Source: Dokdonia sp. (GTDB lineage: Bacteria; Bacteroidota; Bacteroidia; Flavobacteriales; Flavobacteriaceae). From it: a DNA stretch of 64,000 nt. This document shows positions 3,823-63,178 of this stretch, piece by piece (position 1 is the first letter of the stretch; every line of letters starts with the position of its first letter). The notes under the pieces are model-generated. The model was given only the letters and a program-made list of their open reading frames with translations. It was not told the origin of the DNA and made no database searches. The stretch covers positions 269,956-333,955 of the forward strand of contig JAHDIF010000002.1 in assembly GCA_020630915.1 (NCBI GenBank), written 5' to 3'. A program made the translations under genes and the position numbers.

Positions 3823-3836
3823 GCTTTCGCGAAAGC
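3823..3836. repeat. Iterated palindrome GCTTTCGCGAAAGC, intergenic copy
   Basis: Exact copy. Here the symmetry extends to 28 bp (3816-3843), further than at the other sites read in this window. Confidence 0.9.
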
Positions 3837-4084
3837 ATTAAAAAAGCCAAAATATACAACATAACAAATGGGTCAGTTTCAATATTGTGTTGGGTGGAAT
3901 TTTAAAGAAAAAAATGAATTTTTGTCTTTTACTTTTAATAATAAACAGAGACACTTTGATTTTTAACTAATAATACCTCAATTAATTGATTTTAAAGTTT
4001 ATAATAAGTGGTTATGAAGTCATAAACTGCTCATTTATAATAAAAAAATGTAAGAAAAGTCAACATAATGAATTTAGAAGACAA

Positions 4085-4104
4085 AAAGGGGTAAAAGCCC
4101 CTTT
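4085..4104. promoter_or_regulatory. Hairpin AAAGGGG-loop-CCCCTTT upstream of the curlin genes
   Basis: A 7-bp perfect inverted repeat with a six-base loop and no T-run, so not an obvious terminator. A related hairpin (AGGGGTAAA...CCCTTTA) lies at 8160-8175 upstream of the third curlin-like gene. A role as an operator is inference. Confidence 0.3.
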
Positions 4105-4338
4105 AGCTCACAATGGCAGTGACATCCTAGCTTTCAGGAATAGAGGTATAATAATACTAATGTATTTGGTCGAAAATAAAATAGCTCCTAAAAAAAAAAA
4201 TGATAATAATTTTTAAATTTATATCGCATTTCAGTTTTATATCCTTTCCCCCCACTAAGAAATGACATTTCCCCCATAGTAGAGTATATAGACGCATTGC
4301 AGTAGGCAAGGTGATAGTAGAAGGACAATGTAGTCTTT

Positions 4339-4380
4339 ATGAAGTTGTATTTATTAACCATTTATATATTTATTAATTAA
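4339..4380 (+). CDS. Short upstream ORF (13 aa) in the leader of the first curlin gene
   Basis: The frame encodes MKLYLLTIYIFIN and stops 12 bp before the curlin start. The same peptide is encoded at 6351-6392 before the paralogous curlin gene, with only an AAG/AAA synonymous difference, inside a 38-nt identical block (4345-4382 and 6357-6394). Whether it is translated is unknown. The hydrophobic peptide could be a regulatory leader, or the block could be conserved as RNA. Confidence 0.4.
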   Translation: MKLYLLTIYIFIN

Positions 4381-4392
4381 ACCTTTTTTATT

Positions 4393-5916: not shown

Positions 5917-5971
5917 GACATAATTTATAAAGTAGGAGATATCTTTTTCTTGCTAAATATTCCATAGAATC

Positions 5972-6003
5972 AGGGAAAAAGCAATTGTTTTTTCCCTTTT
6001 TTA
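5972..6003 (+). terminator. Terminator between the two large curlin genes
   Basis: Stem AGGGAAAAA / TTTTTTCCCT with loop GCAATTG, followed by a T-run. It lies about 55 bp after the first curlin stop, so the paralogues are probably separate or partly separate transcripts. Confidence 0.75.
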
Positions 6004-6392: not shown

Positions 6393-6403
6393 ACTTTTTT
6401 ATT

Positions 6404-7921: not shown

Positions 7922-7954
7922 TATTACAACTTTCTTATATAATAGATATATTTA

Positions 7955-7984: not shown

Positions 7985-8550
7985 GATTCTAGAATTCTTA
8001 ACAAATGGTTTTTTTTGCTTTCGCGAAAGCGAAAATATCCTATTTATATTTTTAGTTTCAAAATTTAGTATTATAAGATGCTAAATGCACTATTTTCTCG
8101 GTTATTAAAGCATACATGCATTGTAAGAAATTACTGTAAATTTTTGTATTGTAGGAAATAGGGGTAAATACCCTTTATTTGGGTTAAGTACAATAAAATT
8201 AAAGGTTAACAGCACGTTTTACAGTTAGTGATAGTATCATTTTATCGAAAACCATATTTCTGTCCTTGAAACTCAATAAAATATCGATACATTTACATTG
8301 TCTAGGAAGCTTGGTTCATTATTGCGATAGGTCTTAGATAATTCTTCCCCCACTTAGTATAAAGATATATTTCAGAAAACGACTGCCCTATACAGCGTAT
8401 ATACGTATATAGAAGTGTATTGTTTGTATAGAGCATTTTAAGAAAAAACATATAGATCGTAAGAAGGAGATCTGGCGAGTAACTTGTTTTATGCTAATTA
8501 GAAGATGCTTGCTAAAGTCTAGATTAAAAATGGAACCAAATAGCTGTGTT
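7985..8550. other. Intergenic region upstream of the csgB-like/csgEFG operon
   Basis: About 565 bp, AT-rich, with no convincing gene. It contains an iterated palindrome (8017-8030), a hairpin AGGGGTAAA...CCCTTTA (8160-8175) and a C-rich box CCCCCACTTAG at 8347-8357. The box is close to CCCCCACTAAG at 4248-4258, before the first curlin gene. It probably holds the promoter of the csgEFG operon, but no clean TAnnTTTG box was found. Confidence 0.5.
8017..8030. repeat. Iterated palindrome GCTTTCGCGAAAGC, intergenic copy
   Basis: Exact copy between the second curlin gene and the csgB-like gene. The next exact copy is not until 22713. Confidence 0.9.
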
Positions 8551-9087: not shown

Positions 9088-9111
9088 TACGGAAACCGTA
9101 TTAATATCATT

Positions 9112-13368: not shown

Positions 13369-16300
13369 TTAATTATTTTTTGACTTCACTGCTTTACGCA
13401 GTTTGCTTTTGATGGCTTTATCAATCGCGTAATCCATAGGAAGTAATCCTTCGTTGTTTGTGATTGTAGGATTTGCTTTAAATTCCAATAAAATTGTAAT
13501 TAACTCAATATCTTTTTCTGGAACAATTGCTGCAAGATGAAGAGCGGTCTCTCCTTTATTATTTTGAGTGTTGATATCGGCGCCGTTTGCTAGGAGCAAA
13601 CCAAGTATTTTGTAGTCTTTATTCTTTTCGTAAGATTGAGCAACAATATGAACAGGATATTCACCATCATCAAAACGAGTATTACCAGTTAAGTGAGAAA
13701 ATTTTAGAAGTACCTCGATTCCTTCAAAATAGTTGAAACTCACAGCAGTTTTCAGCAAATTAGGCTCTGGAATGGCACCGTTTTCCAGTAACAATTTTAT
13801 AACTTCTGTTTTTCTATAATTCACAGCGTTTATAAGGGCTAGAGAGGGGTCAAGGTTTTTCTCTAGAAGTTTTTTGACTACTTGCTTATTACCTTTTCTT
13901 GCTGCTGTTGTTAAATGAGCATTTGAAAATTGACTAATCTGATTCATAAGAAGTAAGATTACTTCTTCATTTTTAGTCTCCATCGCACTTTCAAACGCAA
14001 TTTGCGCTCTAGCTCCTTTTTCTAGTAGGTATTTAGTAATTTGTGCATTGCCCGTTATACTAGCCTCAATAATGGCGTCATCTACCTTTGCATTACCTTG
14101 CTCAATAAGGACCTTTGATAATTCTATATTTTCCTTTTTTACTGCCTCTTTAATTAAATCAGGGTTTTCACTTTGCGCTCCTTGTCTAATTAAATATTGT
14201 GTAATGAGAATATTTTCTGTTGATACCGCTTTGCTCATTCCATCAGTGGGGTTAGCCTTATTCTCTACTAATAATTTCACCATGTCTAAATTCTCATTGG
14301 ATACAGCAAGCGCGATTGCATTGGTAGGGTTTATATCTTGGGATGGATTAATTAATACGGATTGTACTAATGGTAGCTTATTACTTCTAACTGCTTGATC
14401 TAAGGCAATATTTGGGTTTCCACCATAATAATTAAGAGTTTCATTAAAGAGCTGTTCATCATTTTTTTGTGCGGCATAGGCAAAAACTTTATCTGGGGAA
14501 GCTTTATTATCCAAGCTTACTTTTATGGAAGGTTTATGGTCTTGTGCTATCGCATACGAAAGCGCTTTGCTAGCATTACCACCGTTTTTTAAAGCAAGAT
14601 CTAGAATATTTGTATTACCATTATCTATTGAAATCTCTACAGCTTTATTATCATCAATTCTCGCATTTTTACTTATAAAGTATGAAAATAAGTCGGTATT
14701 ATTTGTTTTAGCAACAACCACTAATGTTTCGTTAGAAGGTTCAGTCACGGGTACAATTACATTAGTTAAATTCTCGTTATTGTGTTGTAAGGCAACATCT
14801 AATACAGATGCGTCTGCTCTTGCATTTAACTTTACAAATTGTCTAGCTAGATCCTCATCGTTATTTTGAGCAGCTAATAATAACTCCGGTTGAGAAGCAG
14901 TAAAGGTTTCATAAGGTTCACTCATTATAGCTTTGATCGTTGGGTAAAACTTAGTTTTAAGAGCAAAGTTCAGATCATTGTTTTGTGTTGTAGCGCCTTC
15001 GCGAAAAAGTGCATAAATTGCACGAGGAGATTTATAAGCTACTGCTTTGTAAATCATATTATTTTTCGGCTGAGCTCCACGTTCTAATAAAATGAGGACT
15101 TTTTGTTCATCAAAATGCTCCCTTTCAAAGAGGAGGTCCAAATCTTTTGTCGTTGGAATAGTTCCTCTATCTAGAACATAATTAAGCAAACTATCTGAGT
15201 GTTTGTTTATAATTATTGCTTCTATAATACCTGGAGAAGTAACATTTCCGTTGCGCGCAAATAAGCTGTCTAGTCTTTGTACATTAGCATTAGTAACCGC
15301 TGCGAGTACCTCAGAATCTAGTACGTAATTATAATTTGCTTCAAAATTAGAAATAAGTTTGGGTTGTTTCTCTAATTCCAAGGTGTATTCAATCTCATAA
15401 ACATCTTTATCAATAGTTTCAATGCGTACTTGCTTTTTAATATTACGTCTAAGTGCTTCTTGGTAACTAGTATGAGCTGCTATGGGTCCAGAAACTCTCA
15501 ATCGAGAACGTTCATTGCTTTTGAATAACTTTTTTGTATCATCCCAAACACTTACATATCCTGTGGCTATATCTTCAGGTTTGATAGTGATTAAAAGATT
15601 TTTGTTAATTATAACCTTTTCATCTGTAATTAAGGTTTCTAAGCGCAATCCTCCACGATCAATTAATGGTGCTGTTCGCAATATTGCTTCATCCTTAGAA
15701 AATCCACCAAAAAATATATCTCCAGTAAATGTTTTTTCTTTTATATCATCCTTACCCATACTGGTTTTAACAATACTTTTGATCTCTTGTTTGAACTGAA
15801 GTGAATATTTTTTATAGAATTTACTTTCTATAGGTTTTTGTTTTTTGGATTCCACTTTCGCGACAGCGTTAGAAATAATGCTATCTAGTAATTGCAATTT
15901 AATTTCCTTCTCTTCTATATCAGAAATACTAGCATTGCGTAGTAAATGAGTAATAGGAACTAACGAAGCATCAATGGGTTTTGGATTGTGACTTACTGTT
16001 TTTGTCCAATCAGTAGGCCAAAGTTCATGCTCATTTCCACCTTGAGTGAAAGCTAGGCTTTCCTTACAATCTACAAATGGAGTAGTATCTACATTGCCTG
16101 TGTGATAATCTTGTATATCTTTAATTGCAGCCTTTTGAAAAGCTTCTTTATCGTAAGGCGAGTAGATATAATCATTCACATTTATAGAATTTCTTCTTAT
16201 AAATTGACCACCTTCGAGAACCTCGTGTGCATAATGTGTTCCATATCTACTAATAAAACCATAGGGTGTAATATCTCTGCCTAGCCTTCTAAAATCTTCA

Positions 16301-19291: not shown

Positions 19292-20106
19292 TGACCACAG
19301 CAGCTTTAGTAGATCAAATACGTAAAAAGAAATCCTTTCTTACCGTAGGATTAGATACAGATCTAGACAAAATCCCCAAGCATTTACTTGCCGAAGAAGA
19401 TCCCATCTTTGCCTTTAATAAAGCGATTATAGATGCGACTCATGACCTTTGTGTAGGATACAAACCTAATATCGCTTTTTACGAAGCTTACGGTCTTAAG
19501 GGTTGGAAATCACTGGAAAAAACCATCAATTATCTAAACGATAATCACCCAGAGCAGTTTACCATAGCAGATGCAAAACGTGGCGATATAGGTAATACAA
19601 GTACACGCTATGCAAAAGCATTTTTTGAAGAACTCGCTTTTGATTCTATAACCATTGCCCCATATATGGGAAAAGATAGTGTGGAGCCTTTTTTACGCTT
19701 TCGCGAAAAGCATACTATTCTACTTGCATTAACCTCTAACAAAGGAGCCTTTGACTTCCAGACTAAAGCTGTAGATGGGCAAGAGCTGTATAAGAAAGTC
19801 TTAGAGACCTCCAAGACCTATGAAGGTTCTGAGAATTTAATGTATGTAGTAGGAGCAACCAAAGCAGAATACCTTACAGACATTCGAAACATTATTCCTT
19901 ACGCATTTTTGCTCGTTCCTGGAGTGGGCGCGCAAGGTGGGAGCCTAGAAGAAGTATGCAAGTATGGAATGACTAAAGACGTAGGCTTATTAGTAAACTC
20001 TTCTAGAGGGATTATCTACAAGTCTGACAAAGAGGATTTTGCACAAGCAGCTAGAACTGCAGCAAAAGATCTTCAATCCCAGATGGAAGCTATCCTGAAT
20101 AGGTAA
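19291..20106 (+). CDS. pyrF: Orotidine 5'-phosphate decarboxylase (type 2)
   Basis: PyrF converts OMP to UMP in the last step of de novo pyrimidine synthesis. The 271-residue enzyme belongs to the longer type 2 group: '[16 protein letters not shown]' at the N-terminus, the catalytic '[13 protein letters not shown]' (Asp/Lys charge network) and '[11 protein letters not shown]' near the phosphate-binding site. It overlaps prfA by one base, and the BtuF-like gene follows after 5 bp. A near copy of the iterated palindrome (GCTTTCGCGAAAAGC at 19697) lies within it. Confidence 0.96.
19697..19711. repeat. Near copy of the iterated palindrome (one-base insertion)
   Basis: GCTTTCGCGAAAAGC in pyrF, read as RFREK. 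The extra A breaks the perfect symmetry. Confidence 0.5.
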
Positions 20107-21920: not shown

Positions 21921-22868
21921 ATGAATATTAGAAATGTAGTACTTGGCTGTTTGCTTATTTGTTTTTCCTGTAAAGAAGATCCGGGAATTAACAGAAAGCT
22001 GCCTTTGCCAAATTCTCCATACATCACAATATTGGGCATCGCTCAAGATGGAGGCTACCCTCATATCAATAACAATAGCGAGTTCGAACAAGTTGAAGAT
22101 GATTCGTCTTTAAAGGAGTTGGTGGTTTCTTTGGGCCTTGTAGATCCCATAAATCAAAAAAAGTTTCTCTTTGAAGCAACGCCAGATATGCCGGAACAGC
22201 TGTCTAATTTGGAGCGTAACTACTTGAAAACGGATAAGATAATAGACGGTATTTTCCTTACGCACGCTCATATGGGGCATTACACAGGACTTATGCATTT
22301 GGGTCGTGAAGCTATGGGTTCAAAAAATATTTCTGTTATGGCAATGCCTAGAATGAAAACTTTTCTAGAAACTAATGGGCCTTGGGAACAGCTAGTGAGT
22401 CTTGAGAATATTAAAATTCTTCCGCTTAAGGAGGATGTTTCCGTACAAGTAACCAAAAAACTAAAAGTCACACCTTTCTTAGTGCCGCACAGAGATGAGT
22501 ATTCAGAAACGGTTGGATATAAAATAGATGGGCCCAACAAATCTGCGCTATTTATTCCAGATATAGACAAGTGGTCTAAATGGGAGCGAGATCTTTTGAC
22601 AGAAGTTGAGAAGGTAGATTATGCTTTTTTGGATGCCACTTTTTTTGCAGAGGGAGAGATCCCAAGACCTATGAGTGAGGTGCCACATCCCTTTGTGGAG
22701 GAGACAGTTAACGCTTTCGCGAAAGCAGATTCAACAACAAAATCTAAAGTAATCTTCATTCACTTTAATCATTCTAACCCTGCTTTAGACCAAAATTTTG
22801 AAGAAAGACGGAAGCTAGAATCGATGGGTTTTAGGTTTGCAAATCAAGGGGGTGTATACAAGTTGTAA
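21921..22868 (+). CDS. PqqB-like metallo-beta-lactamase-fold lipoprotein
   Basis: The 315-residue product has a lipoprotein signal (Cys17 in LICFSC). The fold is that of metallo-beta-lactamases of the PqqB branch: 'ITILGIAQDGGYPH' near the N-terminus, 'IFLTHAHMGHYTGLMHLG' at the metal site, 'LVPHRDEYSETVGYKI' and 'IHFNHSNPAL'. The classical HxHxDH motif is HAHMGH, so the metal-binding Asp is Gly here. No pqqA, C, D or E genes are near, so PQQ synthesis is unlikely. It is probably a periplasmic or surface hydrolase of unknown substrate. An exact iterated palindrome lies inside (22713). Confidence 0.82.
   Translation: MNIRNVVLGCLLICFSCKEDPGINRKLPLPNSPYITILGIAQDGGYPHINNNSEFEQVEDDSSLKELVVSLGLVDPINQKKFLFEATPDMPEQLSNLERNYLKTDKIIDGIFLTHAHMGHYTGLMHLGREAMGSKNISVMAMPRMKTFLETNGPWEQLVSLENIKILPLKEDVSVQVTKKLKVTPFLVPHRDEYSETVGYKIDGPNKSALFIPDIDKWSKWERDLLTEVEKVDYAFLDATFFAEGEIPRPMSEVPHPFVEETVNAFAKADSTTKSKVIFIHFNHSNPALDQNFEERRKLESMGFRFANQGGVYKL
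22713..22726. repeat. Iterated palindrome, coding copy (AFAKA phase)
   Basis: GCTTTCGCGAAAGC within the PqqB-like gene, read as NAFAKAD. Confidence 0.9.
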
Positions 22869-25900: not shown

Positions 25901-26351
25901 AGAAGAGCTTACGGATCTAGTAGAAGAAGCCGTATTATTAGAATTTTATCGTATTACAGAACGTGGCGGCGTTCTAGGAGCAATGGAAACGATGTATCAA
26001 CGTAGTAAGATTCAGGAAGAGAGCTTGTATTATGAGACCTTAAAACATACGGGTGAATTCCCAATTATAGGTGTGAATACCTTCTTAAGTTCTAAAGGAA
26101 GCCCAACAGTACGACCCGCAGAAGTAATTAGAGCTACAGAAGAAGAGAAGCAATACCAGATCACGATGCTGGATAATTTGCATGAAGCTAAGAAAGCTTT
26201 CGCGAAAGCGTCTCTAGAAAATATTCAAGATGCAGCGGTAAATAATGAGAACCTCTTTGAGCATTTGATGGAAGCTACAAAAGTGTGCTCGCTGGGGCAG
26301 ATTACCAGCGCGTTATTTGAAGTAGGAGGACAGTACAGGAGGAATATGTAA
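22941..26351 (+). CDS. icmF: Fused acyl-CoA mutase IcmF (B12 domain, MeaB-type GTPase, mutase)
   Basis: The 1136-residue chain fuses three units. Residues about 10-145 are the B12-binding domain ('[16 protein letters not shown]', base-off His in DGHDAA, and 'IFGGGGGVI'). About 190-420 is a MeaB-like G-domain with P-loop '[13 protein letters not shown]' (about 198-210) and 'NKFDKRG'. About 540-1136 is the TIM-barrel mutase ('[12 protein letters not shown]', '[21 protein letters not shown]'). IcmF interconverts isobutyryl- and n-butyryl-CoA (some also pivalyl-/isovaleryl-CoA) and needs adenosylcobalamin; the G-domain guards cofactor loading. Substrate residues could not be aligned here, so methylmalonyl-CoA activity is not excluded on sequence alone. 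The gene stands alone. Confidence 0.93.
24276..24289. repeat. Iterated palindrome, coding copy (AFAKA phase)
   Basis: Exact copy in icmF, read as DAFAKAQ, in the linker after the G-domain. Confidence 0.9.
26196..26209. repeat. Iterated palindrome, coding copy (AFAKA phase)
   Basis: Second exact copy in icmF, read as KAFAKAS, near the C-terminus. Confidence 0.9.
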
Positions 26352-33139: not shown

Positions 33140-33531
33140 TGTACGATTATAATGTCTTCAATATGAACTAAAGAATCACAAGGGTTAAGGGACAGGTGCA
33201 TTTGCACTTCCTCGGATTTCATATTTCCATTTAAAATATACTCCTTAAAGCAGTCTGACTTTCTAGGATTACTTTTAGAAAAATCTACGGATGCCGTTTT
33301 GTAAAAGTTAGAGAGCACGGTAGAATCTATTTCTTTAGAGAGTGTGTTTTGTTGTGCTTTCGCGGAAAGCGTAAAAGGCATATGACGAAGGCTTTTTAAA
33401 ACTCGTGCTTCTGGAAAGTAAGCAAACTCCATGGAGCTGTCCCCCATTTTTCCTTTTAAAAAGAACGCCAGTAGTACGATACCTATGGCTACCCCTCCTA
33501 AATAGTAACCCACACGCTGAATGATTTTCAT
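33136..33531 (-). CDS. Membrane-anchored small protein (tentatively DUF4258-type)
   Basis: The 131-residue product has one N-terminal membrane span (about 8-26, 'GYYLGGVAIGIVLLAFFLKG'), then a soluble domain with 'EFAYFPEARVLKSLRHMPF' and a C-terminal 'CKEYILNG...NPCDSLVHIEDIIIV'-like pattern. Short proteins of this layout next to alanine dehydrogenase are common in Flavobacteriaceae; the DUF number is from memory and unsure. It starts 3 bp after the ald stop, so it is coupled to it. A near palindrome (GCTTTCGCGGAAAGC, 33356) lies inside. Confidence 0.65.
   Translation of the reverse strand: MKIIQRVGYYLGGVAIGIVLLAFFLKGKMGDSSMEFAYFPEARVLKSLRHMPFTLSAKAQQNTLSKEIDSTVLSNFYKTASVDFSKSNPRKSDCFKEYILNGNMKSEEVQMHLSLNPCDSLVHIEDIIIVH
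33356..33370. repeat. Near copy of the iterated palindrome (one-base insertion)
   Basis: GCTTTCGCGGAAAGC, in the small membrane protein gene. Confidence 0.5.
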
Positions 33532-37860: not shown

Positions 37861-37874
37861 GCTTTCGCGAAAGC
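37861..37874. repeat. Iterated palindrome, intergenic copy upstream of porX
   Basis: Exact copy 17 bp upstream of the chosen porX ATG, in the gap between divergent porX and the HD gene. Confidence 0.9.
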
Positions 37875-42435: not shown

Positions 42436-42449
42436 GCTTTCGCGAAAGC
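42436..42449. repeat. Iterated palindrome, intergenic copy between lpxA and efp
   Basis: Exact copy extended to GCGCTTTCGCGAAAGCG, 20 bp after the lpxA stop. Confidence 0.9.
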
Positions 42450-46345: not shown

Positions 46346-48382
46346 ATGCTCATATCAACCTCTTTGTGGATACTTTTAATAGTTGTAATCGCTTTGCTAT
46401 TTGCTGTATTGCAGTATAGTGTTGGATTTAAAAAGCGTGACAAATTTTCTCTGTTATACGCTGGACTGCGATTTTTGTCCATATTTGGACTATTATTATT
46501 ACTACTGAATCCTAAGTGGACGCAAGTTTCTTACTATAATGAGAAGCCTACCCTCGCAATTGCAGTAGATAATTCTAGAAGTATTGAACATTTAGGATAT
46601 GATAGCTTAGTACGTAATGGCGTAACCCGCTTTCGCGAAAGCAAGCAACTTCAAGAAAAATTTGATGTACAATTTTTTAAATTTGGTCGAGATCTAGAAA
46701 TGCTAGACACTTTATCTTTTAAGGAAAAGCAGACCAATCTTGCCAATGTTTTCACTTCTATAGGCTCTTTATACAAAAAGAGGGCAGCCCCTACAATTTT
46801 AATAACCGATGGAAATCAAACTTATGGGCGTGATTTTAAGTATGCAGCTAGAGATTTTGAACATTCAATTTACCCCGTTGCTGTGGGAGATACTGCTGAG
46901 TATAGGGATATTAGGATAGAGCAGATTAATGTAAACAGATATGCATATATTAAAAATAAATTTCCCGTAGAAGTCTTTTTGAAGTACTCTGGCACTGCTA
47001 TGGAGCAGTCATCTTTACTTGAAATTAAGTCTGGTAATAAAAGTATTCACAAAGAGAGGATTAGATTTTCTTTAGAAAATAAGGCTCTTATCAAATCAAT
47101 AGTACTCCCTGCAGATAAAGTGGGGCTTGCCAGGTATAACGTTACCCTTACTCCTCTGCAAGATGAAAAAAACATCGATAATAATAGTCGAAATTTTGCG
47201 ATAGAAGTAATAGATCAAAAAACAAATGTGTTACTAGTGTCCAACCTTGTACATCCAGATATTGGAATGTTTAAAAAAAGTATTGAGAGTAATGACCTGA
47301 GAAATGTAACTATTAGTAATACAACGGAGAGCACAGGAAAGCTTAGTGAATTTCAGCTGGTAATTTTATATCAACCTGATGAGCAATTTGGACCATTATT
47401 TAAGGAGCTTCGAGAATTAAGTAAGAATACCATTATTGTAACAGGTCCTCGCACTAACTGGGGTTATCTTAACAATATTCAGAGTACAATACAGCGAGAA
47501 GTTACGGGTCAAACAGAAGAGGTACAAGCAATCCTGAACCCCAACTTTTCCAGTTTTACAATTTCCGATATTGGCTTTAGTAATTTCCCGCCTCTTCTTG
47601 GATCATTTGGTGAGATTAATTTTATGAGTGAGGTAGATATTGCCTTATTCCAAAAAATAGGGACTATAGCCACTTCTCAACCATTGATTGCTGCAAGTGA
47701 TATAGACGGACAACGTAGTATCACAATTTTTGGGTCTGGTCTTTGGAAGTGGAGAGCACAGAGCTATAGAGATAGAGGCAGTTTTAAGGAGTTTGATAAT
47801 TTTATCGATAAGCTCGTACAGTATGCAGCCTCTAATAAGCGCAAGAATAGATTGGATATTTCATATGATTCATTTTACTATGGGACTAGTGATATCAGGA
47901 TTAGTGCTCAATATTTTGATAAGAATTATGTGTTTGATAATCGCGGTTCTTTAAGTGCTACAGTCATTAATAAAGAGAGTAAAGAAGTTTATAAAGCTCC
48001 ATTGTTATTAAAAAGTAATTATTACGAACTAGATTTGAGTAATCTTAATGCTGGCGATTATGAGTTTTCAGTAAATGTATTGGATCAAAAATTAACCAGA
48101 TCAGGATCGTTTACTATTATTCCTTTTGAGGCAGAAATTCAATTCTTAAATGCAAATATGAATGACTTAAATGAACTTGCTGCAAAGAATGAAGGTGCTC
48201 TTTTTACAATTGAAAATGTAACTGATCTAATAAAAAATCTTGTTCAAGATGATCGGTACAGATCTGTTCAAAAAAGCAGTGAGAAAGTCGTACCTTTAAT
48301 AGATAGAAAGTGGTTGCTAGCCTTAATCATATTATTCTTAACAATAGAATGGTTTATGCGTAAATACCGTGGTTTAACTTAA
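46346..48382 (+). CDS. VWA-domain membrane protein (BatA-like layout)
   Basis: The start at 46346 (MLISTSLWILLIVVIALLFA) opens onto a membrane span; an in-frame ATG at 46295 lies inside fabG. The 678-residue protein has two N-terminal spans (about 6-25 and 38-57). A von Willebrand A-like domain (about 70-220) has an intact MIDAS DxSxS ('LAIAVDNSRSIEH'). A long beta-rich extracytoplasmic part follows, then a C-terminal span (about 652-670). The layout resembles large flavobacterial VWA proteins of unknown role. A palindrome copy at 46629 encodes RFRES. Confidence 0.82.
   Translation: MLISTSLWILLIVVIALLFAVLQYSVGFKKRDKFSLLYAGLRFLSIFGLLLLLLNPKWTQVSYYNEKPTLAIAVDNSRSIEHLGYDSLVRNGVTRFRESKQLQEKFDVQFFKFGRDLEMLDTLSFKEKQTNLANVFTSIGSLYKKRAAPTILITDGNQTYGRDFKYAARDFEHSIYPVAVGDTAEYRDIRIEQINVNRYAYIKNKFPVEVFLKYSGTAMEQSSLLEIKSGNKSIHKERIRFSLENKALIKSIVLPADKVGLARYNVTLTPLQDEKNIDNNSRNFAIEVIDQKTNVLLVSNLVHPDIGMFKKSIESNDLRNVTISNTTESTGKLSEFQLVILYQPDEQFGPLFKELRELSKNTIIVTGPRTNWGYLNNIQSTIQREVTGQTEEVQAILNPNFSSFTISDIGFSNFPPLLGSFGEINFMSEVDIALFQKIGTIATSQPLIAASDIDGQRSITIFGSGLWKWRAQSYRDRGSFKEFDNFIDKLVQYAASNKRKNRLDISYDSFYYGTSDIRISAQYFDKNYVFDNRGSLSATVINKESKEVYKAPLLLKSNYYELDLSNLNAGDYEFSVNVLDQKLTRSGSFTIIPFEAEIQFLNANMNDLNELAAKNEGALFTIENVTDLIKNLVQDDRYRSVQKSSEKVVPLIDRKWLLALIILFLTIEWFMRKYRGLT
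46629..46642. repeat. Iterated palindrome, coding copy (FRES phase)
   Basis: Exact copy in the VWA gene, read as TRFRESK. Confidence 0.9.
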
Positions 48383-51736: not shown

Positions 51737-53025
51737 TGAAAAAGGTATTTAACCCTGAAGAAAGTTCTTGGGAAGAACTCTTACAGAGACCTACTCAAAC
51801 TGTAGAGGATATTGAAGAAACAGTAAAAACGATCTTCCAAGACGTACAGAGCAATGGTGATGAGGCTGTAGCCAAGTATACAGACATTTTTGATGGTGTA
51901 CGTTTGGATAGTATTTATGCTTCCGCGAAAGAAATAGAAGCTGCAAAAATTACCACTTCTCAAGAATTAAAGGATGCGATTCAACTAGCCAAAGACAATA
52001 TCGAGAAGTTTCACAATGCTCAAAAAACAGTAAGAGTAGCCGTTGAGACCACTCAAGGTGTACATTGCTGGCAAGAAAAACGGCCTATTCAAAAAATAGG
52101 GCTGTATATCCCTGGAGGTACAGCACCGCTTTTTTCTACCATCTTAATGCTTGCAGTGCCTGCCCAAATTGCAGGTTGTAAAGAGATCGTATTGTGTACG
52201 CCACCAGGTAAGGATGGTAGCATAAATCCTGCGATACTTTACACGGCCCAACTATGTGGCGTGACTAAAATTCTAAAAGTAGGCGGAATTCAAGCTATTG
52301 CAGGAATGACGTTTGGTACTGATAGTATTCCGGAGGTATATAAAATTTTCGGACCAGGAAATCAGTTTGTTACAGTTGCCAAACAACTAGCTACTAAGTA
52401 TGGCGTGGCTATCGATATGCCAGCAGGTCCTTCAGAACTTTTGGTTGTGGCAGATGATTCGGCAGATGCCAGTTTTGTTGCTTCGGACCTCTTAAGTCAA
52501 GCAGAGCATGGTGTAGATAGTCAGGTGATTTTAGTATCCACCTCTCTAAAACTAATTGATGCTGTAGAGAGAGAGATAGAGATGCAGATGTCTACACTTT
52601 CGCGAAAGCATATTGCTCAAAAAGCAATTGAAAATAGTAAATTAATCTTTGTAGAACAGGATGCTACGGCACTACGCTTAATAGATGCCTACGGACCGGA
52701 GCACTTTATTGTAGCAGTAGAAAATGAAGATTTTTATGTAGCAAATATTGGTAATGCGGGATCTGTTTTTATAGGGAATTACACGCCAGAAAGTGCTGGT
52801 GATTACGCTTCCGGAACTAATCATACATTGCCTACCAATGGATATGCCAAGCAATACAGCGGTGTCAATCTAGACAGTTTTATGAAAAGTATGACGTTCC
52901 AGAAAATTACAGCAACAGGAATTCAAAATATAGGACCAGCCATAGAAGCGATGGCCACGGCAGAAGGACTAGATGCTCATAAAAATGCCGTTACACTTCG
53001 TTTAAAAGCTTTGCAAGATGGATAG
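51736..53025 (+). CDS. hisD: Histidinol dehydrogenase
   Basis: HisD oxidises L-histidinol to histidine in two NAD steps with zinc. The ATG at 51736 overlaps the hisG stop by one base and is preferred to an in-frame ATG at 51709. The 430-residue enzyme shows 'GLYIPGGTAPLFSTILMLAVPAQIAGC', 'IFGPGNQFVTVAKQL', 'DMPAGPSELLVVAD', the zinc ligands in 'SQAEHGVDSQ', and 'GPEHFIV' plus 'SGTNHTLPTNGYA'. A palindrome core at 52597 encodes TLSRKH. Its end overlaps hisC by 8 bp. Confidence 0.97.
   Translation: MKKVFNPEESSWEELLQRPTQTVEDIEETVKTIFQDVQSNGDEAVAKYTDIFDGVRLDSIYASAKEIEAAKITTSQELKDAIQLAKDNIEKFHNAQKTVRVAVETTQGVHCWQEKRPIQKIGLYIPGGTAPLFSTILMLAVPAQIAGCKEIVLCTPPGKDGSINPAILYTAQLCGVTKILKVGGIQAIAGMTFGTDSIPEVYKIFGPGNQFVTVAKQLATKYGVAIDMPAGPSELLVVADDSADASFVASDLLSQAEHGVDSQVILVSTSLKLIDAVEREIEMQMSTLSRKHIAQKAIENSKLIFVEQDATALRLIDAYGPEHFIVAVENEDFYVANIGNAGSVFIGNYTPESAGDYASGTNHTLPTNGYAKQYSGVNLDSFMKSMTFQKITATGIQNIGPAIEAMATAEGLDAHKNAVTLRLKALQDG
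52597..52608. repeat. Iterated palindrome core CTTTCGCGAAAG, coding copy (LSRK phase)
   Basis: 12-bp core in hisD flanked by A and C, read as TLSRKH. Confidence 0.8.
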
Positions 53026-54061: not shown

Positions 54062-55197
54062 TGGCAAAACGCGTATTATTCATCGATCGCGATGGAACGA
54101 TTATTAAAGAAACCGCAGACGAGCAAATAGATGCTTTTGAGAAAATGATTTTCTACCCAAAAGCTTTTACGTGGTTGGGAAAAATAGCTCAAGAGTTAGA
54201 GTATGAGCTTGTTATGATTACCAATCAAGATGGGTTGGGAACCGATGTGTTTCCAGAAGAAACCTTCTGGCCAGTACACAACTTTATTCTAAAATCCTTT
54301 GAGAACGAAGGTGTAGTCTTTAACAAAGTATTTCTAGACAGAACGTTCCCTCACCAAAATGCAAACACTCGCAAGCCCGGAACTGGCTTACTTACGGAGT
54401 ATTTTAGTGACGAATATGATTTGACAAATTCGTTTGTAATAGGTGATCGTTTGACGGATATGGAACTGGCAAAAAACTTAGGTGCTCAAGGGATTTTTAT
54501 TAATGATAATACCAATCTTGGTGAAGGTGAAACTTCGGTTTCTGATGAAGAATTAGACAAGCACATCGCATTAGAGAGTAATGATTGGCAAAAAATATAT
54601 GAGTTTTTAAAATTAAAGAATCGTGTTGCGACGCTTTCGCGAAAGACAAATGAGACCGATATTCAAATTACACTGAACCTAGATGGAACTGGCAAAGCCG
54701 CTATTGATACCGGTATTGCATTTTTTGACCATATGCTAGATCAGATAGCACGCCACGGACAAATGGATCTAGATATCTCAGTAAAAGGCGACCTAGAAGT
54801 AGATGAGCATCACACTATAGAAGATACAGCTATTGCCTTAGGAGAAGTATTTGCCAATGCCTTAGGAAACAAGCTTGGTATCGAACGATATGGATTTTGC
54901 TTGCCTATGGACGACTGCCTAGCTCAAGTAGCGATTGATTTTGGAGGTCGCAATTGGCTCGTTTGGGAAGCAGATTTTAAGCGTGAAATGATAGGAAAAA
55001 TGCCTACCGAGATGTTCTATCACTTCTTTAAAAGCTTTACCGATGGAGCAAAAGCAAATATCAATATTAAGGCAGAAGGAACCAATGAGCACCACAAGAT
55101 AGAAGCCATCTTTAAAGCTTTCGCGAAAGCGATAAAAGTAGCAGTTAAGCGTGATGCAGAGAAGATGATTTTGCCAAGTACAAAAGGAATGTTATAA
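54061..55197 (+). CDS. hisB: Bifunctional histidinol-phosphatase / imidazoleglycerol-phosphate dehydratase
   Basis: The 378-residue protein fuses two steps. Residues 1-165 are a HAD-type histidinol phosphatase with the DxD nucleophile in '[14 protein letters not shown]' and the '[16 protein letters not shown]' motif. Residues about 185-378 are IGP dehydratase: '[20 protein letters not shown]', '[15 protein letters not shown]' and '[18 protein letters not shown]', which carry the manganese-binding His and Glu residues. The fusion occurs in enterobacteria and Bacteroidetes. It contains two palindromes (54634 core, 55117 exact). Confidence 0.97.
54634..54645. repeat. Iterated palindrome core, coding copy (LSRK phase)
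   Basis: CTTTCGCGAAAG in hisB, read as TLSRKT, at the junction of the two enzyme domains. Confidence 0.8.
55117..55130. repeat. Iterated palindrome, coding copy (AFAKA phase)
   Basis: Exact copy in hisB, read as KAFAKAIK, right after the active-site HHKIEA motif. Confidence 0.9.
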
Positions 55198-55683: not shown

Positions 55684-56268
55684 ATGAACATAGTTATAAT
55701 AGATTACGGAGCAGGAAACATCCAAAGCATCAAATTTGCCATACAACGTCTAGGTTACGAGGCTATTTTGAGCAGTGATCCCAATGAAATACAGAAGGCA
55801 GATAAAGTTATTTTTCCAGGCGTAGGTGAGGCGAGTAGTGCTATGAAAAAGCTCAGAGCATCAGGTCTCGATATATTGATCCCTAATCTTACGCAACCAG
55901 TATTAGGTATATGTTTAGGGATGCAGTTAATGTGTAATTATACAGAAGAAGGAAAAACCAAGGGACTTGGTATTTTTGATGTAAATGTGTTACGCTTTCG
56001 CGAAAGCGTAAAAGTCCCCCAAATACAATGGAATACCATTCGTGATCTAAAGTCTCCCTTATTTATAGGGATAGACGAAGAGAGTTTTATCTATATGGTA
56101 CATAGTTATTACGCTCCTGTAACAAACGAGACTATAGCTACGTGCACTTATGGGGCTGATTATGGTGCCGCTTTTACGAAAGCAAACTTCTACGGAACTC
56201 AATTTCATCCTGAAAAATCAAGTAGTGTAGGAGAACAAATTTTAAAGAATTTTATAGAAAATATATAA
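55684..56268 (+). CDS. hisH: Imidazole glycerol phosphate synthase, glutaminase subunit
   Basis: HisH releases ammonia from glutamine and feeds it to HisF. The 194-residue class I amidotransferase has the nucleophile Cys in 'PVLGICLGMQLMC' (about 80), the His/Glu pair in 'GTQFHPEKSS' (about 179-181) and the start 'IVIIDYGAGNIQSIKFAI'. A palindrome at 55994 encodes LRFRESV in a surface region. Its start directly abuts the repeat cluster, so promoter or ribosome access may be shaped by it. Confidence 0.96.
   Translation: MNIVIIDYGAGNIQSIKFAIQRLGYEAILSSDPNEIQKADKVIFPGVGEASSAMKKLRASGLDILIPNLTQPVLGICLGMQLMCNYTEEGKTKGLGIFDVNVLRFRESVKVPQIQWNTIRDLKSPLFIGIDEESFIYMVHSYYAPVTNETIATCTYGADYGAAFTKANFYGTQFHPEKSSSVGEQILKNFIENI
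55994..56007. repeat. Iterated palindrome, coding copy (FRES phase)
   Basis: Exact copy in hisH; here the symmetry extends to 20 bp (55991-56010). Read as LRFRESV. Confidence 0.9.
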
Positions 56269-59048: not shown

Positions 59049-60443
59049 ATGTATCACAGACTTTTATACGTAATTGCCCTTTTTTTTACTGTTTCCGGCA
59101 ACATGCAATCTCAAATTGATCCTGAATTACAAGGTGTGTGGGAAATGCGTGGATATGGATGGATTTTTTCTATTGATTCGGATGAAGTTACCACCTATGA
59201 TATGACTCATATATCCTGTACTCCAAGTGCTTCTTACGCTAGTACGATGATATTGGGTAATTATAAGGTAGAAGATATGGTCCTTACAGTAAAATTAGGT
59301 CTATCTACCTATGTCATGGATAAACTAAATACACTTCCTGATATGTGTGCTAACAAGCTTTCGCGAAAGCAAAAAAAGGATCCTGTTCATAATTTTGAAG
59401 TACTATGGCACACCTTTAATGAACAATATGCATATTTTGATTTACGTGGCACAGACTGGGATGCCAGTTATAAAAAGTATAGATCGAAAGTAACCGAAAA
59501 AACATCTGAAATTGAGTTATATCGCATTTTATATGCAATGTTAGAAGATATAAGAGATGGGCATGTGCATATCGAAGCACCGGATAAGATTATGGAAAAG
59601 GTACTAGTTGATGAAGACCTGGAAGATGATGTCAATTTTAAAAATTTATGGATGGAAATTGCACATCAGTATATAGATGATCTTCGAACTCATAACTATA
59701 CCAAAAGTGTGTGGGGTAAGATTAATGATAAAATAGGTTATTTACAGGTGAATGATATGGTTGCACAAGCGCATTACGGTATAACCCCAGATATGCCTAA
59801 AAACGAGGCACAAAAACTGTATATAAGTTCTGTAGAAAATACGGATAATCATATGCGGGATGAGACGGAAGGAATGCGTAAGACCATGCAAAATGTTTTA
59901 AAAGACCTAGAAGGAGTCGAAAATATTATTGTAGATGTTCGTTTTAATGGTGGTGGCTTTGATACTGTATCGTATGAAATTATAAGAGCTTTTACAGAAG
60001 TGTCATTTATAGGGTTTAAGAAGTATGCAAGGCTTGGCGATGGTACAACAGCTCCTTATTTTTATGAGGTAACTCCTGCGGAAAAAGTATTTAAAGGAAA
60101 CGTCTATATACTACAAAGTCCGTTTTCAGGAAGTGCGACAGAAACTATGTTACTGGCTTCTATGCAAATGTCTAATGTCACAAGAATAGGCTCAGCATCT
60201 GAAGGAATCCTTTCTGATGCTTTAGAAAAAGTACTTCCTAATGGATGGACCTTTACCTTATCTAATGAAGCTTATGTAACTCCAGAAGGTGTAAACTATG
60301 AGGATATTGGTATTCCTGTTGATCAGGAATTAAATTACTCTAGGGATGTAGAGGTTTTTATAGGTAATCTTGAGGAAAGCATACGCTCTAATAAATATGA
60401 CGAGGGCATAGAATATATATTACAGCAAATTAATAACGAATAA
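59049..60443 (+). CDS. Exported S41 (C-terminal processing) family peptidase
   Basis: The 464-residue protein has a signal peptide (about 1-21, ending MQSQ), a helical and beta-rich N-terminal region, and the S41 catalytic core: 'VENIIVDVRFNGGGFDTVSYEIIRAF' (about 300-320) and the nucleophile Ser in 'LQSPFSGSATETMLLA' (about 360). The PDZ domain is not obvious. Relatives degrade periplasmic proteins or process peptides, and some are peptide hydrolases of the tricorn type. It is not obviously tied to the his operon; 63 bp separate them. Palindrome at 59357. Confidence 0.88.
   Translation: MYHRLLYVIALFFTVSGNMQSQIDPELQGVWEMRGYGWIFSIDSDEVTTYDMTHISCTPSASYASTMILGNYKVEDMVLTVKLGLSTYVMDKLNTLPDMCANKLSRKQKKDPVHNFEVLWHTFNEQYAYFDLRGTDWDASYKKYRSKVTEKTSEIELYRILYAMLEDIRDGHVHIEAPDKIMEKVLVDEDLEDDVNFKNLWMEIAHQYIDDLRTHNYTKSVWGKINDKIGYLQVNDMVAQAHYGITPDMPKNEAQKLYISSVENTDNHMRDETEGMRKTMQNVLKDLEGVENIIVDVRFNGGGFDTVSYEIIRAFTEVSFIGFKKYARLGDGTTAPYFYEVTPAEKVFKGNVYILQSPFSGSATETMLLASMQMSNVTRIGSASEGILSDALEKVLPNGWTFTLSNEAYVTPEGVNYEDIGIPVDQELNYSRDVEVFIGNLEESIRSNKYDEGIEYILQQINNE
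59357..59370. repeat. Iterated palindrome, coding copy (LSRK phase)
   Basis: Exact copy in the S41 peptidase gene, read as NKLSRKQ. Confidence 0.9.
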
Positions 60444-60495: not shown

Positions 60496-60545
60496 AAAAC
60501 CACCACACACTTGAGAAATCAAACCCTCAAGGGTGGTGATTTTAG
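60496..60545. terminator. Hairpin terminator between convergent S41 and DUF5694 genes
   Basis: Stems ACCACC / GGTGGT and CTTGAG / CTCAAG with a short A/T-rich loop, flanked by A- and T-rich tracts. Confidence 0.65.
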
Positions 60546-60550
60546 TATGT

Positions 60551-61489
60551 TTATTTCTCATCTATAATTTTGACGCGTATTTCTGGAAACTGCTTTTCTA
60601 GTTCGGCTTTAATGCCAAGAACGTGACCTGCTCCTACAATGACTATCGCTCGTTTTTGACTATTATCTAAAACTTGATCTCCTATATTTTTTGCCATTCC
60701 TGCATTACGCCTATCCCATACGTTGCCTGCTTCTTCACAAGGCTCACAAGGAGTATCTCTAAATTCAAAACGATTTGCCCTTACATATCGCTTCATAGTT
60801 TTTACTCTGTTGGAGTATTTGCCTAGATTCCCAAGGGCGCCTGGTATCATATGCTTGCGATAGTCAGACTTGTTTTCCTTTACTAGTTTAACAACTTGTC
60901 CATCTTTCTTACTTTCAGACACACATTTCTGCCATAGTTCATTGTAAGCAAGAGCTTCACGTTGGTAATCCATAGAGAAGATCTGTTTCATATCCATTTC
61001 TATCGCAAGTTTTGCTGTCAAATCACCGTTTTCGTGACGTAAGGGATCCTTGCTACCATTTACTCCATAATTTTCAAGATACCTGTAGTAGTTCCAGTTT
61101 GCCATATCTTTTTTTGAGGCGTGATAATTTTTAAGATAACCAAAGTCATCTTGTGACATAGAAGTTATATCAGAATTAAGAAGCCTCGTGGTACGTGAGT
61201 TATCATTTTTAAATATGGAAGCAATACTATCGGATAGCGGCACAAAATAATCACCTTCGTCTAGTAATAGACTTAATGAGTCTGATGATGGTACATATTC
61301 GGCATAAATGGCATCTGGTTGATACCTTGTTGCGATTTTTAATAATGGCTTGTAGGCGTTTTTTACGATCTTAGGGACCTTGTGCATTGTACCTATGATA
61401 AATACTTCTTGCTGTTGATCTAATTGTGCTTTCGCGAAAGCAGAAAAAAGAAAAATAACAGATATACTAAGGTTGATAATCGTTTTCAT
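60551..61489 (-). CDS. TraB/GumN-like exported protein (DUF5694 type)
   Basis: The start at 61489 (MKTIINLSISVIFLFSAFAKAQ) gives a clean signal peptide; an in-frame ATG at 61522 adds 11 residues before it. The 312-residue mature protein has 'EVFIIGTMHKVPKIVKNAYKPLLKIATRYQPDAIYAEYV', the GTxH and E of the TraB/PrgY/GumN (EreA/ChaN-like) fold, and 'AIVIVGAGHVLGIKAELEKQFPEI' with the second His. This superfamily includes metal-dependent proteases and esterases; the exact role is unknown. The AFAKA at the end of the signal peptide is encoded by an exact palindrome (61428). Confidence 0.85.
   Translation of the reverse strand: MKTIINLSISVIFLFSAFAKAQLDQQQEVFIIGTMHKVPKIVKNAYKPLLKIATRYQPDAIYAEYVPSSDSLSLLLDEGDYFVPLSDSIASIFKNDNSRTTRLLNSDITSMSQDDFGYLKNYHASKKDMANWNYYRYLENYGVNGSKDPLRHENGDLTAKLAIEMDMKQIFSMDYQREALAYNELWQKCVSESKKDGQVVKLVKENKSDYRKHMIPGALGNLGKYSNRVKTMKRYVRANRFEFRDTPCEPCEEAGNVWDRRNAGMAKNIGDQVLDNSQKRAIVIVGAGHVLGIKAELEKQFPEIRVKIIDEK
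61428..61441. repeat. Iterated palindrome, coding copy (AFAKA phase, minus-strand gene)
   Basis: Exact copy in the signal-peptide codons of the DUF5694-type gene, read as SAFAKAQ. Confidence 0.9.
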
Positions 61490-61580
61490 AATATTAAATT
61501 TTAAGTTTGACTTCTGGTACAAACCTAAAACAAGAAAACGCTGCAGTCTATTATATATGGGTGTTTGGGGTGAAATGCAC

Positions 61581-62378
61581 TTACTTTGTGGCGAAATTTA
61601 AGGCCATTTTTACGGCCGTGGTGTAGGTCTTAGATATTGGGGTGAAAATATCATTAGAAAGTTGAAGCCCTTGTTTGCCTTCTACCGTTTTGTAAGCTTG
61701 AAAATGATCGGGATTTATAATAAATGAACGATGGGTTCGAAGTAATTCTGGGTGACTATTTTCTATGGTTGATAGCTTCGTACGGATCAATTGCTTTTTG
61801 AGATTTCCGTTGTCAAGAAATGATATTTCTACATAATTATCTGAGGATTGCACACAGACTAGGTCTTCTAGTAGTAATCGTAAACTTTCATAATTTCCTT
61901 CTCCTTTGATTTCGATCTTCCTATTTTCTAGCTGTTTGTTCTTGTATTTACCCAAAGCCCATCGACCTAAAGCTACAATCGGAAATATGGTAACAGCAGC
62001 AGGTAAAAATATGCTTGTGATATAATAATCTAACGAGTAAGGGTTAGGTTCATTGGCAACAACAATATATAGATACACGGAGCGTGTGAGTACTAATGCA
62101 CCTGTTATAAAAACTAGAAAGAATAATAGTTCCTTTTTCGCATTCCAGGTCAAGTTATTTTTAAAGAGCCATTGTTGAAAAGGAAGCATTGCAGCATACG
62201 CAAGAGCTCCAACTATACCATATATGGGCAAAAATTGAAGTTTTTGTGCATTGGTAAGCTCATTTACATCCAAAGGATCAGTAAAATATAGGAATGCAAA
62301 TATCCATACTGCTAGCCCTAAGGCAAGCCAAAGGTGATTTTTAATAGAAGGATCAAAAGGATATTTCATTTCCACCAA
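61581..62378 (-). CDS. LytTR-family regulator with N-terminal membrane domain
   Basis: The 265-residue protein has four membrane spans (about 15-35, 48-68, 84-108, 122-142), a short linker and a LytTR DNA-binding domain (about 160-262: 'LEDLVCVQSSDNYVEISFLDNGNLKKQLIRTKLSTIE', 'RTHRSFIINPDHFQAYKTVEGKQGLQLSNDIFTPISKTY'). It is a one-component, membrane-bound regulator of a type common in Flavobacteria; its signal and targets are unknown. Its start overlaps the DUF1853 gene end by 13 bp. Confidence 0.9.
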   Translation of the reverse strand: MVEMKYPFDPSIKNHLWLALGLAVWIFAFLYFTDPLDVNELTNAQKLQFLPIYGIVGALAYAAMLPFQQWLFKNNLTWNAKKELLFFLVFITGALVLTRSVYLYIVVANEPNPYSLDYYITSIFLPAAVTIFPIVALGRWALGKYKNKQLENRKIEIKGEGNYESLRLLLEDLVCVQSSDNYVEISFLDNGNLKKQLIRTKLSTIENSHPELLRTHRSFIINPDHFQAYKTVEGKQGLQLSNDIFTPISKTYTTAVKMALNFATK

Positions 62379-63178
62379 ACTACAAAAAACTTATCTAAAC
62401 TACCATCAGGCATTTTACGCCATAGCATAGGCGCATTTTTGTTAATGTGACGCACGTTTACATCCATAAGAATATTAAAATGTGATTGCCAGTCTACTTG
62501 ATTATGGGGTAGATGTAACCATTCATACTTGTGGGGTATGTAGTATACGCTTTCGCGAAAGCTAGCATCCTCAAAATCGCTCATATACATCCAGCTGCCT
62601 ACAATACATTGCTTGTTAAGAGGTCTAATTGATGGGACTTCTTGTGTAAGGGGCACAAAAAGCTGTCCCACAAAATACACTTGCTGGATTACTTCACGTG
62701 GATCAATTTGTAATTCTTGTAAGTAGGGAAGACACTCCTTTGTATGTAAAAGCGGCAGCTGTTTATTTTTAGTCTTTTCTAGCTTAGTAAAAAACATATC
62801 CTTACGGTTAGGACCCATCAAACGGTGTATAGGCTCTGATATGGATGGATCTATAATGTAGAATTTACAGCTTAACTCTATGTGGTAAATTGCCTTTTTG
62901 TATTCTAAAAGAAAATCTAATTCTCCTACGGTGGTATTTCCTATTTTGACTTGTATACTATGAGCGAGTATGTTATACTCGGGATGCTGTTTGAGTAATT
63001 CTAGAAATATATATTCTACTTGATGCCCAAGTCTAAGGTTCGTAGGAATAGGCGATGGAGAAAAGTTTGAGAGGTCAAAATCAGGAAATGCAAATTGTTG
63101 TATACTAAATTGCTCCTGTTTCCAGAGCGGTTGTGTTTTTACAAATCCTTTATACGACCTCACGTTGTAAAAATACAA
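62366..63178 (-). CDS. DUF1853 family protein
   Basis: The 270-residue protein shows the DUF1853 pattern: 'LRLGHQVEYIFLELLKQHPEYNILAHSIQV', 'GELDFLLEYKKAIYHIELSCKFYI', 'RLMGPNRKDMFFTKLEKTKNKQLPLL' and 'VDVNVRHINKNAPMLWRKMP'-like ending. The E-x-D-F-L and H-I-E-L-S-x-K arrangement recalls a PD-(D/E)xK nuclease core, which could give nuclease activity; this is inference. It overlaps the LytTR gene by 13 bp. Palindrome at 62549 encodes SFRES. Confidence 0.85.
   Translation of the reverse strand: MYFYNVRSYKGFVKTQPLWKQEQFSIQQFAFPDFDLSNFSPSPIPTNLRLGHQVEYIFLELLKQHPEYNILAHSIQVKIGNTTVGELDFLLEYKKAIYHIELSCKFYIIDPSISEPIHRLMGPNRKDMFFTKLEKTKNKQLPLLHTKECLPYLQELQIDPREVIQQVYFVGQLFVPLTQEVPSIRPLNKQCIVGSWMYMSDFEDASFRESVYYIPHKYEWLHLPHNQVDWQSHFNILMDVNVRHINKNAPMLWRKMPDGSLDKFFVVWWK
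62549..62562. repeat. Iterated palindrome, coding copy (FRES phase, minus-strand gene)
   Basis: Exact copy in the DUF1853 gene, read as ASFRESV. Confidence 0.9.

Follow-up and report, generated by a model that had tools for sequence, protein, structure and literature searches.

The window, a stretch of 64,000 nucleotides of Dokdonia sp. (host genome G000, 2,967,236 bp in 18 contigs), carries a hisB-type gene, presumably hisB, whose neighbours encode HisG and histidinol dehydrogenase (Pfam), and displays, within genes and between them, 14 exact copies of a 14-bp perfect palindrome (Table 1). The core of this palindrome includes TCGCGA, and 8 of its 14 bases are G or C (57% GC). The host genome contains 685 exact copies in 2.97 Mb, corresponding to 231 per Mb or one per ~4 kb. 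All 14 copies listed in the initial annotation, which was made from the window alone, were recovered at their coordinates. The two 12-bp cores that it reported are also present, within 14-mers with one mismatch that start at 52596 and 54633. Its three near copies exist as well, the first being shifted from 15855 to 15854, the second (19697) having two mismatches, and the third (33356) being a 15-mer with an inserted base; three further two-mismatch sites (38924, 51919 and 56170) were added. Its reading of the codon phases holds for AFAKA (five copies) and FRES (three copies), while LSRK is found three times and not four, and three copies instead of four are intergenic, as assigned by hand from the list of open reading frames (ORFs), with the copies at 37861 and 61428 adjoining uncertain ORF starts. 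The gap between 8031 and 22712 is indeed free of exact copies, but two near copies lie inside it.

Table 1. Exact and near copies of the 14-bp palindrome in the window (positions are those of the 64,000-nucleotide stretch; a dot stands for no strand).
Feature	Position	Strand	Context
Exact copy	3823..3836	.	Intergenic
Exact copy	8017..8030	.	Intergenic, downstream of curlin-repeat gene
2-mismatch copy	15854..15867	.	Within exact-copy gap; flank signature present
2-mismatch copy	19697..19710	.	Within exact-copy gap; flank signature present
Exact copy	22713..22726	.	Coding, AFAKA phase
Exact copy	24276..24289	.	Methylmalonyl-CoA mutase/MeaB gene, AFAKA phase
Exact copy	26196..26209	.	Methylmalonyl-CoA mutase/MeaB gene (as the copy at 24276), AFAKA phase
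Exact copy	29077..29090	.	Peptidase M14 gene, LSRK phase
15-bp variant, single base inserted within core	33356..33370	.	
Exact copy	37861..37874	.	Near response regulator/PglZ ORF start, LSRK phase; start codon uncertain
2-mismatch copy	38924..38937	.	Flank signature present
Exact copy	42436..42449	.	Intergenic, upstream of EF-P gene
Exact copy	46629..46642	.	Coding, FRES phase; conserved in G017
2-mismatch copy	51919..51932	.	Weak flank signature
1-mismatch copy (12-bp core)	52596..52609	.	Histidinol dehydrogenase gene; exact in three Dokdonia relatives
1-mismatch copy (12-bp core)	54633..54646	.	hisB-type gene; 484 bp from exact copy
Exact copy	55117..55130	.	hisB-type gene, AFAKA phase; three relatives use different, synonymous codons
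Exact copy	55994..56007	.	Glutamine amidotransferase gene, FRES phase; kept by the three Dokdonia relatives compared
2-mismatch copy	56170..56183	.	176 bp from exact copy
Exact copy	59357..59370	.	Peptidase S41 gene, LSRK phase
Exact copy	61428..61441	.	Near TraB/DUF5694 ORF start, AFAKA phase; start uncertain
Exact copy	62549..62562	.	Coding, FRES phase

The abundance of the palindrome was compared with chance on a G000 sample of 452,445 bp, comprised of the window and 20 further stretches, in which 99 exact copies were found against 0.001 expected under a second-order Markov model. The 71 coding copies of this sample compare with 0.0009 expected under a codon-independent model, and the window holds 21 matches with at most two mismatches against 0.12 in dinucleotide shuffles, while a control word, the reversed pattern, has no copy in G000. 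Chance and codon bias are thus ruled out as the source of the copies by the shuffle, Markov and codon models. Imperfect copies are likewise in excess: 544 kb of G000 hold 119 exact copies and 31 with one mismatch (0.06 expected), and none of the one-mismatch copies in either sample departs from the palindrome at core positions 4 and 7 of the half-site. All 18 Dokdonia genomes searched are enriched, with 369 to 905 copies each, and the claim of the initial annotation that the element is far above chance therefore came through both of the checks it had proposed, namely a Markov or codon-aware expectation and enrichment in sister species.

When the family was sampled more widely (395 genomes of 203 genera), six genomes proved copy-rich, namely three from genus g11, two from Dokdonia and a single one from genus g183, and the remaining 389 had between 0 and 19 copies each. 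Outside the family, a single copy was found in 9 of 346 genomes of the phylum and none in the others. A tree of LpxC (30 rows) groups g183, together with the copy-poor genus g147, with Dokdonia, and places g11 elsewhere among copy-poor genera, both with support; on this one-gene tree the identical site therefore occurs in two separate places. Two gains, or a lateral transfer of the binding protein, are the simplest readings of this distribution, and a single gain followed by many losses could also account for it.

Conservation was scrutinized in five regions of 64 to 100 kb around the hisB-type gene, taken from the window genome and from Dokdonia relatives including G017, G006 and G009. Columns of the palindrome core were 99.2% identical (1442 columns), against 82.7% overall, while the letters of the flanks, with 79.8%, were not conserved. 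At ~78.6% identity (G017 compared with G006 and G009), 16 of 19, 17 of 19, 16 of 16 and 17 of 17 sites were matched exactly by the partner (random 14-mers 6-7%); pairs at 84-86% identity gave 18/18, 18/19, 22/24, 21/23, 22/22 and 21/21 (random 14-mers 20-24%), and G006 and G009, which are 94% identical, gave 20 of 21 in both directions (random 14-mers 52%). The more distant G000 offered only two to five alignable sites per comparison with its relatives, one or two of them conserved. Where an aligned site was inexact in the partner, the core was ungapped in 22 of 23 comparisons, which share sites and in which the direction of change was not polarised. Missing copies thus differ by substitution and not by insertion, as for the copy at 55117, and an inserted element was rejected as the origin of the copies.

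The palindrome is the centre of a considerably wider signature. Flank profiles, taken on both strands of 173 Dokdonia sites with distinct 8-bp flanks, show a 5' flank that is G/T-rich and C-poor from -4 to -19, with 3-10% C per position (17% at -8), and that returns to near-baseline composition by about -22; positions -1 to -3 prefer C, A and T. In the 98 pooled sites of G000, C amounts to 7.3% at -4 to -19 compared with 16.5% at -22 to -30. The C content of the g11 flanks is 4.5% (20 sites), and the effect is weaker in g183 (17.1% against 22.6% farther out, 13 sites). Viral-contig stretches chosen only because they contain the exact 14-mer served as control and displayed no overall effect (22.3% against 20.8%, 92 sites). 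Since some 16-20 nearly C-free bases lie 5' of the core on both strands, the complete site is symmetric and spans ~54 bp, and since the letters of the flanks are unconserved between species, only the avoidance of C is kept. Over 25 mirrored flank positions complementarity was about that of shuffled ones, and a hairpin or inverted repeat extending past the core was rejected. Eighty loci from other genera, scanned as a pool and hence blind to a dialect restricted to one genus, yielded no palindrome whose flanks are skewed to a similar degree (best z 4.6), against z values of 16.8 to 24.4 for 8- and 10-mers of the Dokdonia and g11 site.

The 71 coding copies among the 99 of the G000 sample are distributed over the three phases as 33, 19 and 19, and the 28 intergenic ones fall in ~10% of the DNA, a division that is approximate because the gene calls rest on a simple codon score. 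Of the 24 intergenic copies for which both flanking genes are known, two sit between convergent genes. The C-poor skew is equal in sense coding, antisense coding and intergenic copies, and is therefore a property of DNA and not of RNA. The three phases, the use of several rare codons and the likeness of the flanks on both strands bear out the initial annotation in its statement that the DNA, not a peptide, is kept.

The copies are spaced more evenly than random placement would allow. Four of 168 pooled gaps were shorter than 1 kb, where 36.5 were expected, and the gap distribution departs from an exponential one (188 gaps, Kolmogorov-Smirnov p = 1.6e-7). Because four of the pooled regions are orthologous, gaps were recounted within single genomes: 4 of 98 were under 1 kb in G000 (21.2 expected), and 6 of 109 in 20 stretches of 20 kb of the complete genome G017 (31.6 expected). 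Each of these 20 stretches contains 3 to 9 copies (variance/mean 0.30), and the comparison of origin with terminus that had been suggested for the element revealed no trend obvious by eye. Copies with one or two mismatches tend to lie away from exact ones, at a median distance of 2.0 kb in G000 (n=43; 1.0 for random points), 1.4 kb in G017 (n=16; 0.8 for random points) and 2.5-2.8 kb in the pooled regions (n=93; 1.0 for random points), and the window's 14.7-kb gap in exact copies is occupied by two of them. In the pooled 0.94 Mb, adding the near copies cut the coefficient of variation of the gaps from 0.80 to 0.61 (0.82 with random points), a drop that comes with four orthologous hisB regions, and brought the longest gap down from 25.2 kb to 8.8 kb (median 15.4 kb under random placement). 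Within single genomes the coefficient was not lowered (0.61 to 0.62 in G000 and 0.51 to 0.53 in G017), and with near copies it was still below that of random placement (0.75 and 0.61, respectively), no trial of 300 being as low in either genome. Being far above chance, conserved, different between relatives by substitution, and present with a usable copy within a few kb, the copies are selected as DNA.

Copies in several copy-poor genera cluster, among those fetched, on shared DNA, with an 8.7-kb segment of G326 matching G000 at 99.8% identity. This DNA is a heavy-metal efflux island encoding CusA/CzcA, CusB, an outer-membrane factor and P-type ATPases (Pfam and NCBIfam, loci L029 and L022); a conjugative element, considered for the same DNA, was dropped on the basis of these family matches to the ORFs of the two loci. 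The island is shared laterally across several genera of the Flavobacteriaceae, including locus L015 (C14 of G000), with palindromes at homologous places. At 11 loci of copy-poor genera (L021-L027, L029, L031, L032 and L037), 25 of 27 sites score higher for the flank signature than 99% of random positions. For islands less than 80% identical to each other, the partner carried the site exactly in 62 of 137 comparisons, in which sites recur, against a mean of 3.5% of random 14-mers, a conservation weaker than that within Dokdonia. This pattern fits islands that once lived in copy-rich hosts and whose copies decay elsewhere.

A scan of viral contigs returned at least 120 stretches with the 14-mer. 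Among the matches listed, sites scoring highest for the flanks come mostly from AT-rich contigs, several of which have more than one copy, and the proteins encoded on site-bearing viral contigs belong to head protease, portal, major head, tape measure, terminase and primase families. Integrases are also encoded by two contigs, L192 and L270, whose sites are genuine, and these two are taken as temperate-phage contigs. The Nonlabens phages P12024L and P12024S (L354 and L355) lack TCGCGA altogether over ~35 kb each, against 3.5-3.6 expected from composition. Among the matches listed, the best-scoring site lies on the stretch L239, where a DNA methyltransferase gene is accompanied by genes for large proteins without assigned function; instead of a phage, L239 may represent a defence or mobile island.

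The wide two-fold symmetric footprint points to a dimeric protein as the reader of the site, and we tentatively prefer, at somewhat less than even probability, the reading that this protein uses the palindrome as a self-DNA signal of the uptake-sequence type. The palindrome would be the core of a ~54-bp recognition site for a putative dimeric DNA-binding protein, and DNA with a copy nearby would be favoured in DNA exchange, as a two-armed uptake or transformation signal comparable to the uptake signal sequence (USS) of the Pasteurellaceae. A second close copy would add nothing, which would keep the spacing even; the bias of uptake and recombination would hold each copy letter-perfect, imperfect copies would persist where no perfect one is near, and phages and islands resident in such hosts would gain copies and lose them outside. 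This self-DNA uptake signal is ranked first because the spacing rule, the redundancy over short range, the weak sites in gaps, the differences by substitution, the preference for non-coding DNA and the spread within a subclade match USS. Like USS and the DNA uptake sequences (DUS) of the Neisseriaceae, the palindrome has hundreds of near-perfect copies, is over-represented across a genus and is limited to a subclade. The hallmarks given for USS and DUS in PMC1626085, with comparison features also taken from PMC1939737, are a distribution more regular than random, a preference for non-coding DNA and an origin other than insertion, together with flanking segments in USS; the Dokdonia site displays all three, and has extended flanks as USS does. 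The two integrase-bearing phage contigs, L192 and L270, also count in favour of this reading, as does Riemerella columbina, of a genus placed by its authors in the Flavobacteriaceae, which is transformed preferentially by DNA of its own kind, although a motif has not been proven (PMC7965970).

Several points weigh against an uptake signal. The Dokdonia site, which belongs to another phylum, the Bacteroidota, occurs once per ~4 kb, whereas known USS and DUS approach one per kb. It is a perfect palindrome with symmetric flanks, and the known USS and DUS, as described in PMC1626085 and PMC1939737, are not palindromes. Two near copies in the window (56170 and 54633) lie only 176 and 484 bp from exact ones. 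Sites are also found on phage contigs, for most of which no lifestyle could be assigned. No uptake receptor was found, the reading presumes that Dokdonia is competent, and the evidence does not discriminate between uptake and an intracellular use of the site. A broader claim, for which the chances seem about even, is that the palindrome is a previously undescribed self-DNA mark of Bacteroidota, two-armed and ~54 bp long (the 14-bp palindrome with nearly C-free 5' arms), that is kept within a few kb of all DNA, would act in either direction in uptake or recombination with no part for methylation, and would have been gained separately, with the same sequence and arms, in the distant g11.

A chromosome-organising site, possible but distinctly doubtful, comes next. 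A lineage-specific nucleoid or domain protein would occupy each palindrome, one anchor being needed per few kb, and such a role would suit the symmetric ~54-bp site, the regular spacing with weak copies in gaps, the 3 to 9 copies per stretch of a complete genome without an origin-terminus trend by eye, and the strong conservation of individual sites. Against it stand the copies on phage contigs and on the laterally shared metal-efflux island, which need no host nucleoid anchors, and the restriction to three of the 203 genera sampled in the family. The machinery survey, made on 12 copy-rich and 15 copy-poor genomes, found a single ParB match (PF02195) in 11 of the 12 copy-rich genomes; only G011 has a second one, and an extra ParB was rejected as the binder. 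The segregation role by way of an additional ParB or Noc that the initial annotation allowed is not borne out. The sites of parS and Noc are 14-16-bp palindromes containing TTTC...GAAA, with a spacing of half-sites that differs from that of the Dokdonia palindrome, which in addition is spread evenly in hundreds of copies. On a 20-kb stretch of G017 (L375) with parB at its low end, so that one side of the gene amounts to only ~0.9 kb, no canonical parS-like word was present within two mismatches.

It is unlikely, and somewhat less probable than a chromosome-organising site, that the palindrome acts as a two-way Chi-like site, at which a helicase-nuclease would halt on either strand and RecA would be loaded on the C-poor, G/T-rich strand 5' of the site, so that DNA carrying it is repaired and not degraded. 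RecA is loaded at Chi on the 5' side and favours GT-rich DNA, and the density of Chi in E. coli is near the one per ~4 kb of the palindrome, so that both density and strand context, with 5' flanks G/T-rich and C-poor for ~16-20 nucleotides on both strands, resemble those of the Dokdonia site. AddB-like proteins of the PDDEXK_1 family (open frames of 897-1000 amino acids), a name which we inferred, were found in 15 of 15 genomes, and the sites on phage contigs would also agree with a Chi-like role. Known Chi sites, however, are short and not palindromic, and for a palindrome of 14 bp a strand bias is impossible. The AddB-like proteins, furthermore, diverge where the site does not. Those of G000 are only 43-46% identical to their counterparts in two other Dokdonia carrying the site, where LpxC is 89-90% identical; those two share 70% with each other (LpxC 92.5%), and a copy-poor pair at 90.5% for LpxC shares 69%. 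In the AddB tree g11 stands apart from Dokdonia, and a lateral transfer of AddAB to g11 was not seen. Fast divergence applies to the AddA/AddB-like genes of Dokdonia as a pair (L328-L353, names likewise tentative), with 43-48% identity between G000 and the two others and 67-70% between those two.

The resemblance in style to the cyanobacterial highly iterated palindrome HIP1, which the initial annotation had pointed out, stands, the element being a short perfect palindrome iterated genome-wide in genes and gaps and specific to a lineage. An orphan DNA methyltransferase that makes or uses the element, the proposal put forward for cyanobacteria, is improbable. Its TCGCGA, the NruI site, is a plausible methyltransferase target, but the conserved unit of 14 bp plus flanks is longer than methyltransferase sites usually are. 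Four methyltransferase families were surveyed: PF00145 has members in 6 of the 12 copy-rich genomes, PF01555 exceeds its cut-off in 2, PF02086 occurs in 6 (one match being a weak fragment), and PF02384 occurs in 11, but also in 14 of the 15 copy-poor genomes; G203, with 408 copies, has a match to PF01555 only. None of the four is thus common to all 12 copy-rich genomes, by which an orphan methyltransferase was rejected and the initial suggestion of a methylation target finds no support. The HIP class, according to PMC4390886, has 1000-2000 copies per Mb, a GC content of at least 75% (with one exception of 50% named by the author) and a cognate methyltransferase in every HIP genome, in contrast to the 231 copies per Mb, 57% GC and ~54-bp footprint of the Dokdonia site. 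Among the families examined (the four methyltransferase families, ParB and AddB-like proteins), no palindrome-binding protein was identified.

An RNA-level or mobile element, such as a terminator, a repetitive extragenic palindromic (REP)-like repeat or an inserted mini-element, is very improbable, since for all its palindromy, its intergenic enrichment and the folding of two of four flanked copies into hairpins that extend past the core, with values well below those of the shuffled controls, most copies are coding and few lie between convergent genes, the flank skew is strand-equal without mirrored complementarity, and missing copies are ungapped; a terminator and a REP, the latter being extragenic, were rejected on these grounds. 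The 18-nt palindromic repeat of Caldithrix abyssi, described in PMC5317091 as iterated, without assigned function, REP-like and mainly intergenic with 38 exact copies, differs from the Dokdonia element with its 685 mostly coding ones.

The palindrome is therefore HIP1-like in style and USS-like in statistics, and a member of neither class, because it fails the density, GC content and shared methyltransferase of HIP and the density of USS, which are not palindromes. New here are the ~54-bp footprint, the high conservation of the core, the spacing rule, the near copies in gaps, the pattern of substitutions, the copies on phage contigs and on the metal-efflux island, and the lack, among four methyltransferase families, of one common to the 12 copy-rich genomes. 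In a literature search that left most subscription papers outside its reach, the element was unreported in Dokdonia or the Bacteroidota; neither the 14-mer nor the 12-mer appeared as an unbroken string, and the inner 10-mer was met in ten papers whose titles suggest no relation. Few sequence signals so dense and so conserved are known, and earlier ones revealed the specificity of DNA uptake, recombination at Chi, and HIP1. The present element, which occurs in cultivable marine flavobacteria and tracks no tested methyltransferase family, combines a spacing rule that can be measured with a broad symmetric footprint, and makes it testable whether a bacterium maintains the spacing of its self marks. 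As it tags DNA resident in such hosts, exemplified by the metal-efflux island and the phage contigs, it may serve as a tracer of gene flow.

Two smaller observations concern individual loci. The hisB-type gene of Flavobacterium (L069, L071, L073 and L085) contains the exact 14-mer at the same place without the flank signature; these copies were not accepted as genuine sites and are likely a coincidence of conserved peptide and codons. In the window, two curlin-repeat genes, csgG and a gene for an ankyrin-repeat MACPF protein (4393-16719) lie in or beside the largest gap in exact copies, and this stretch is perhaps a more recent acquisition.

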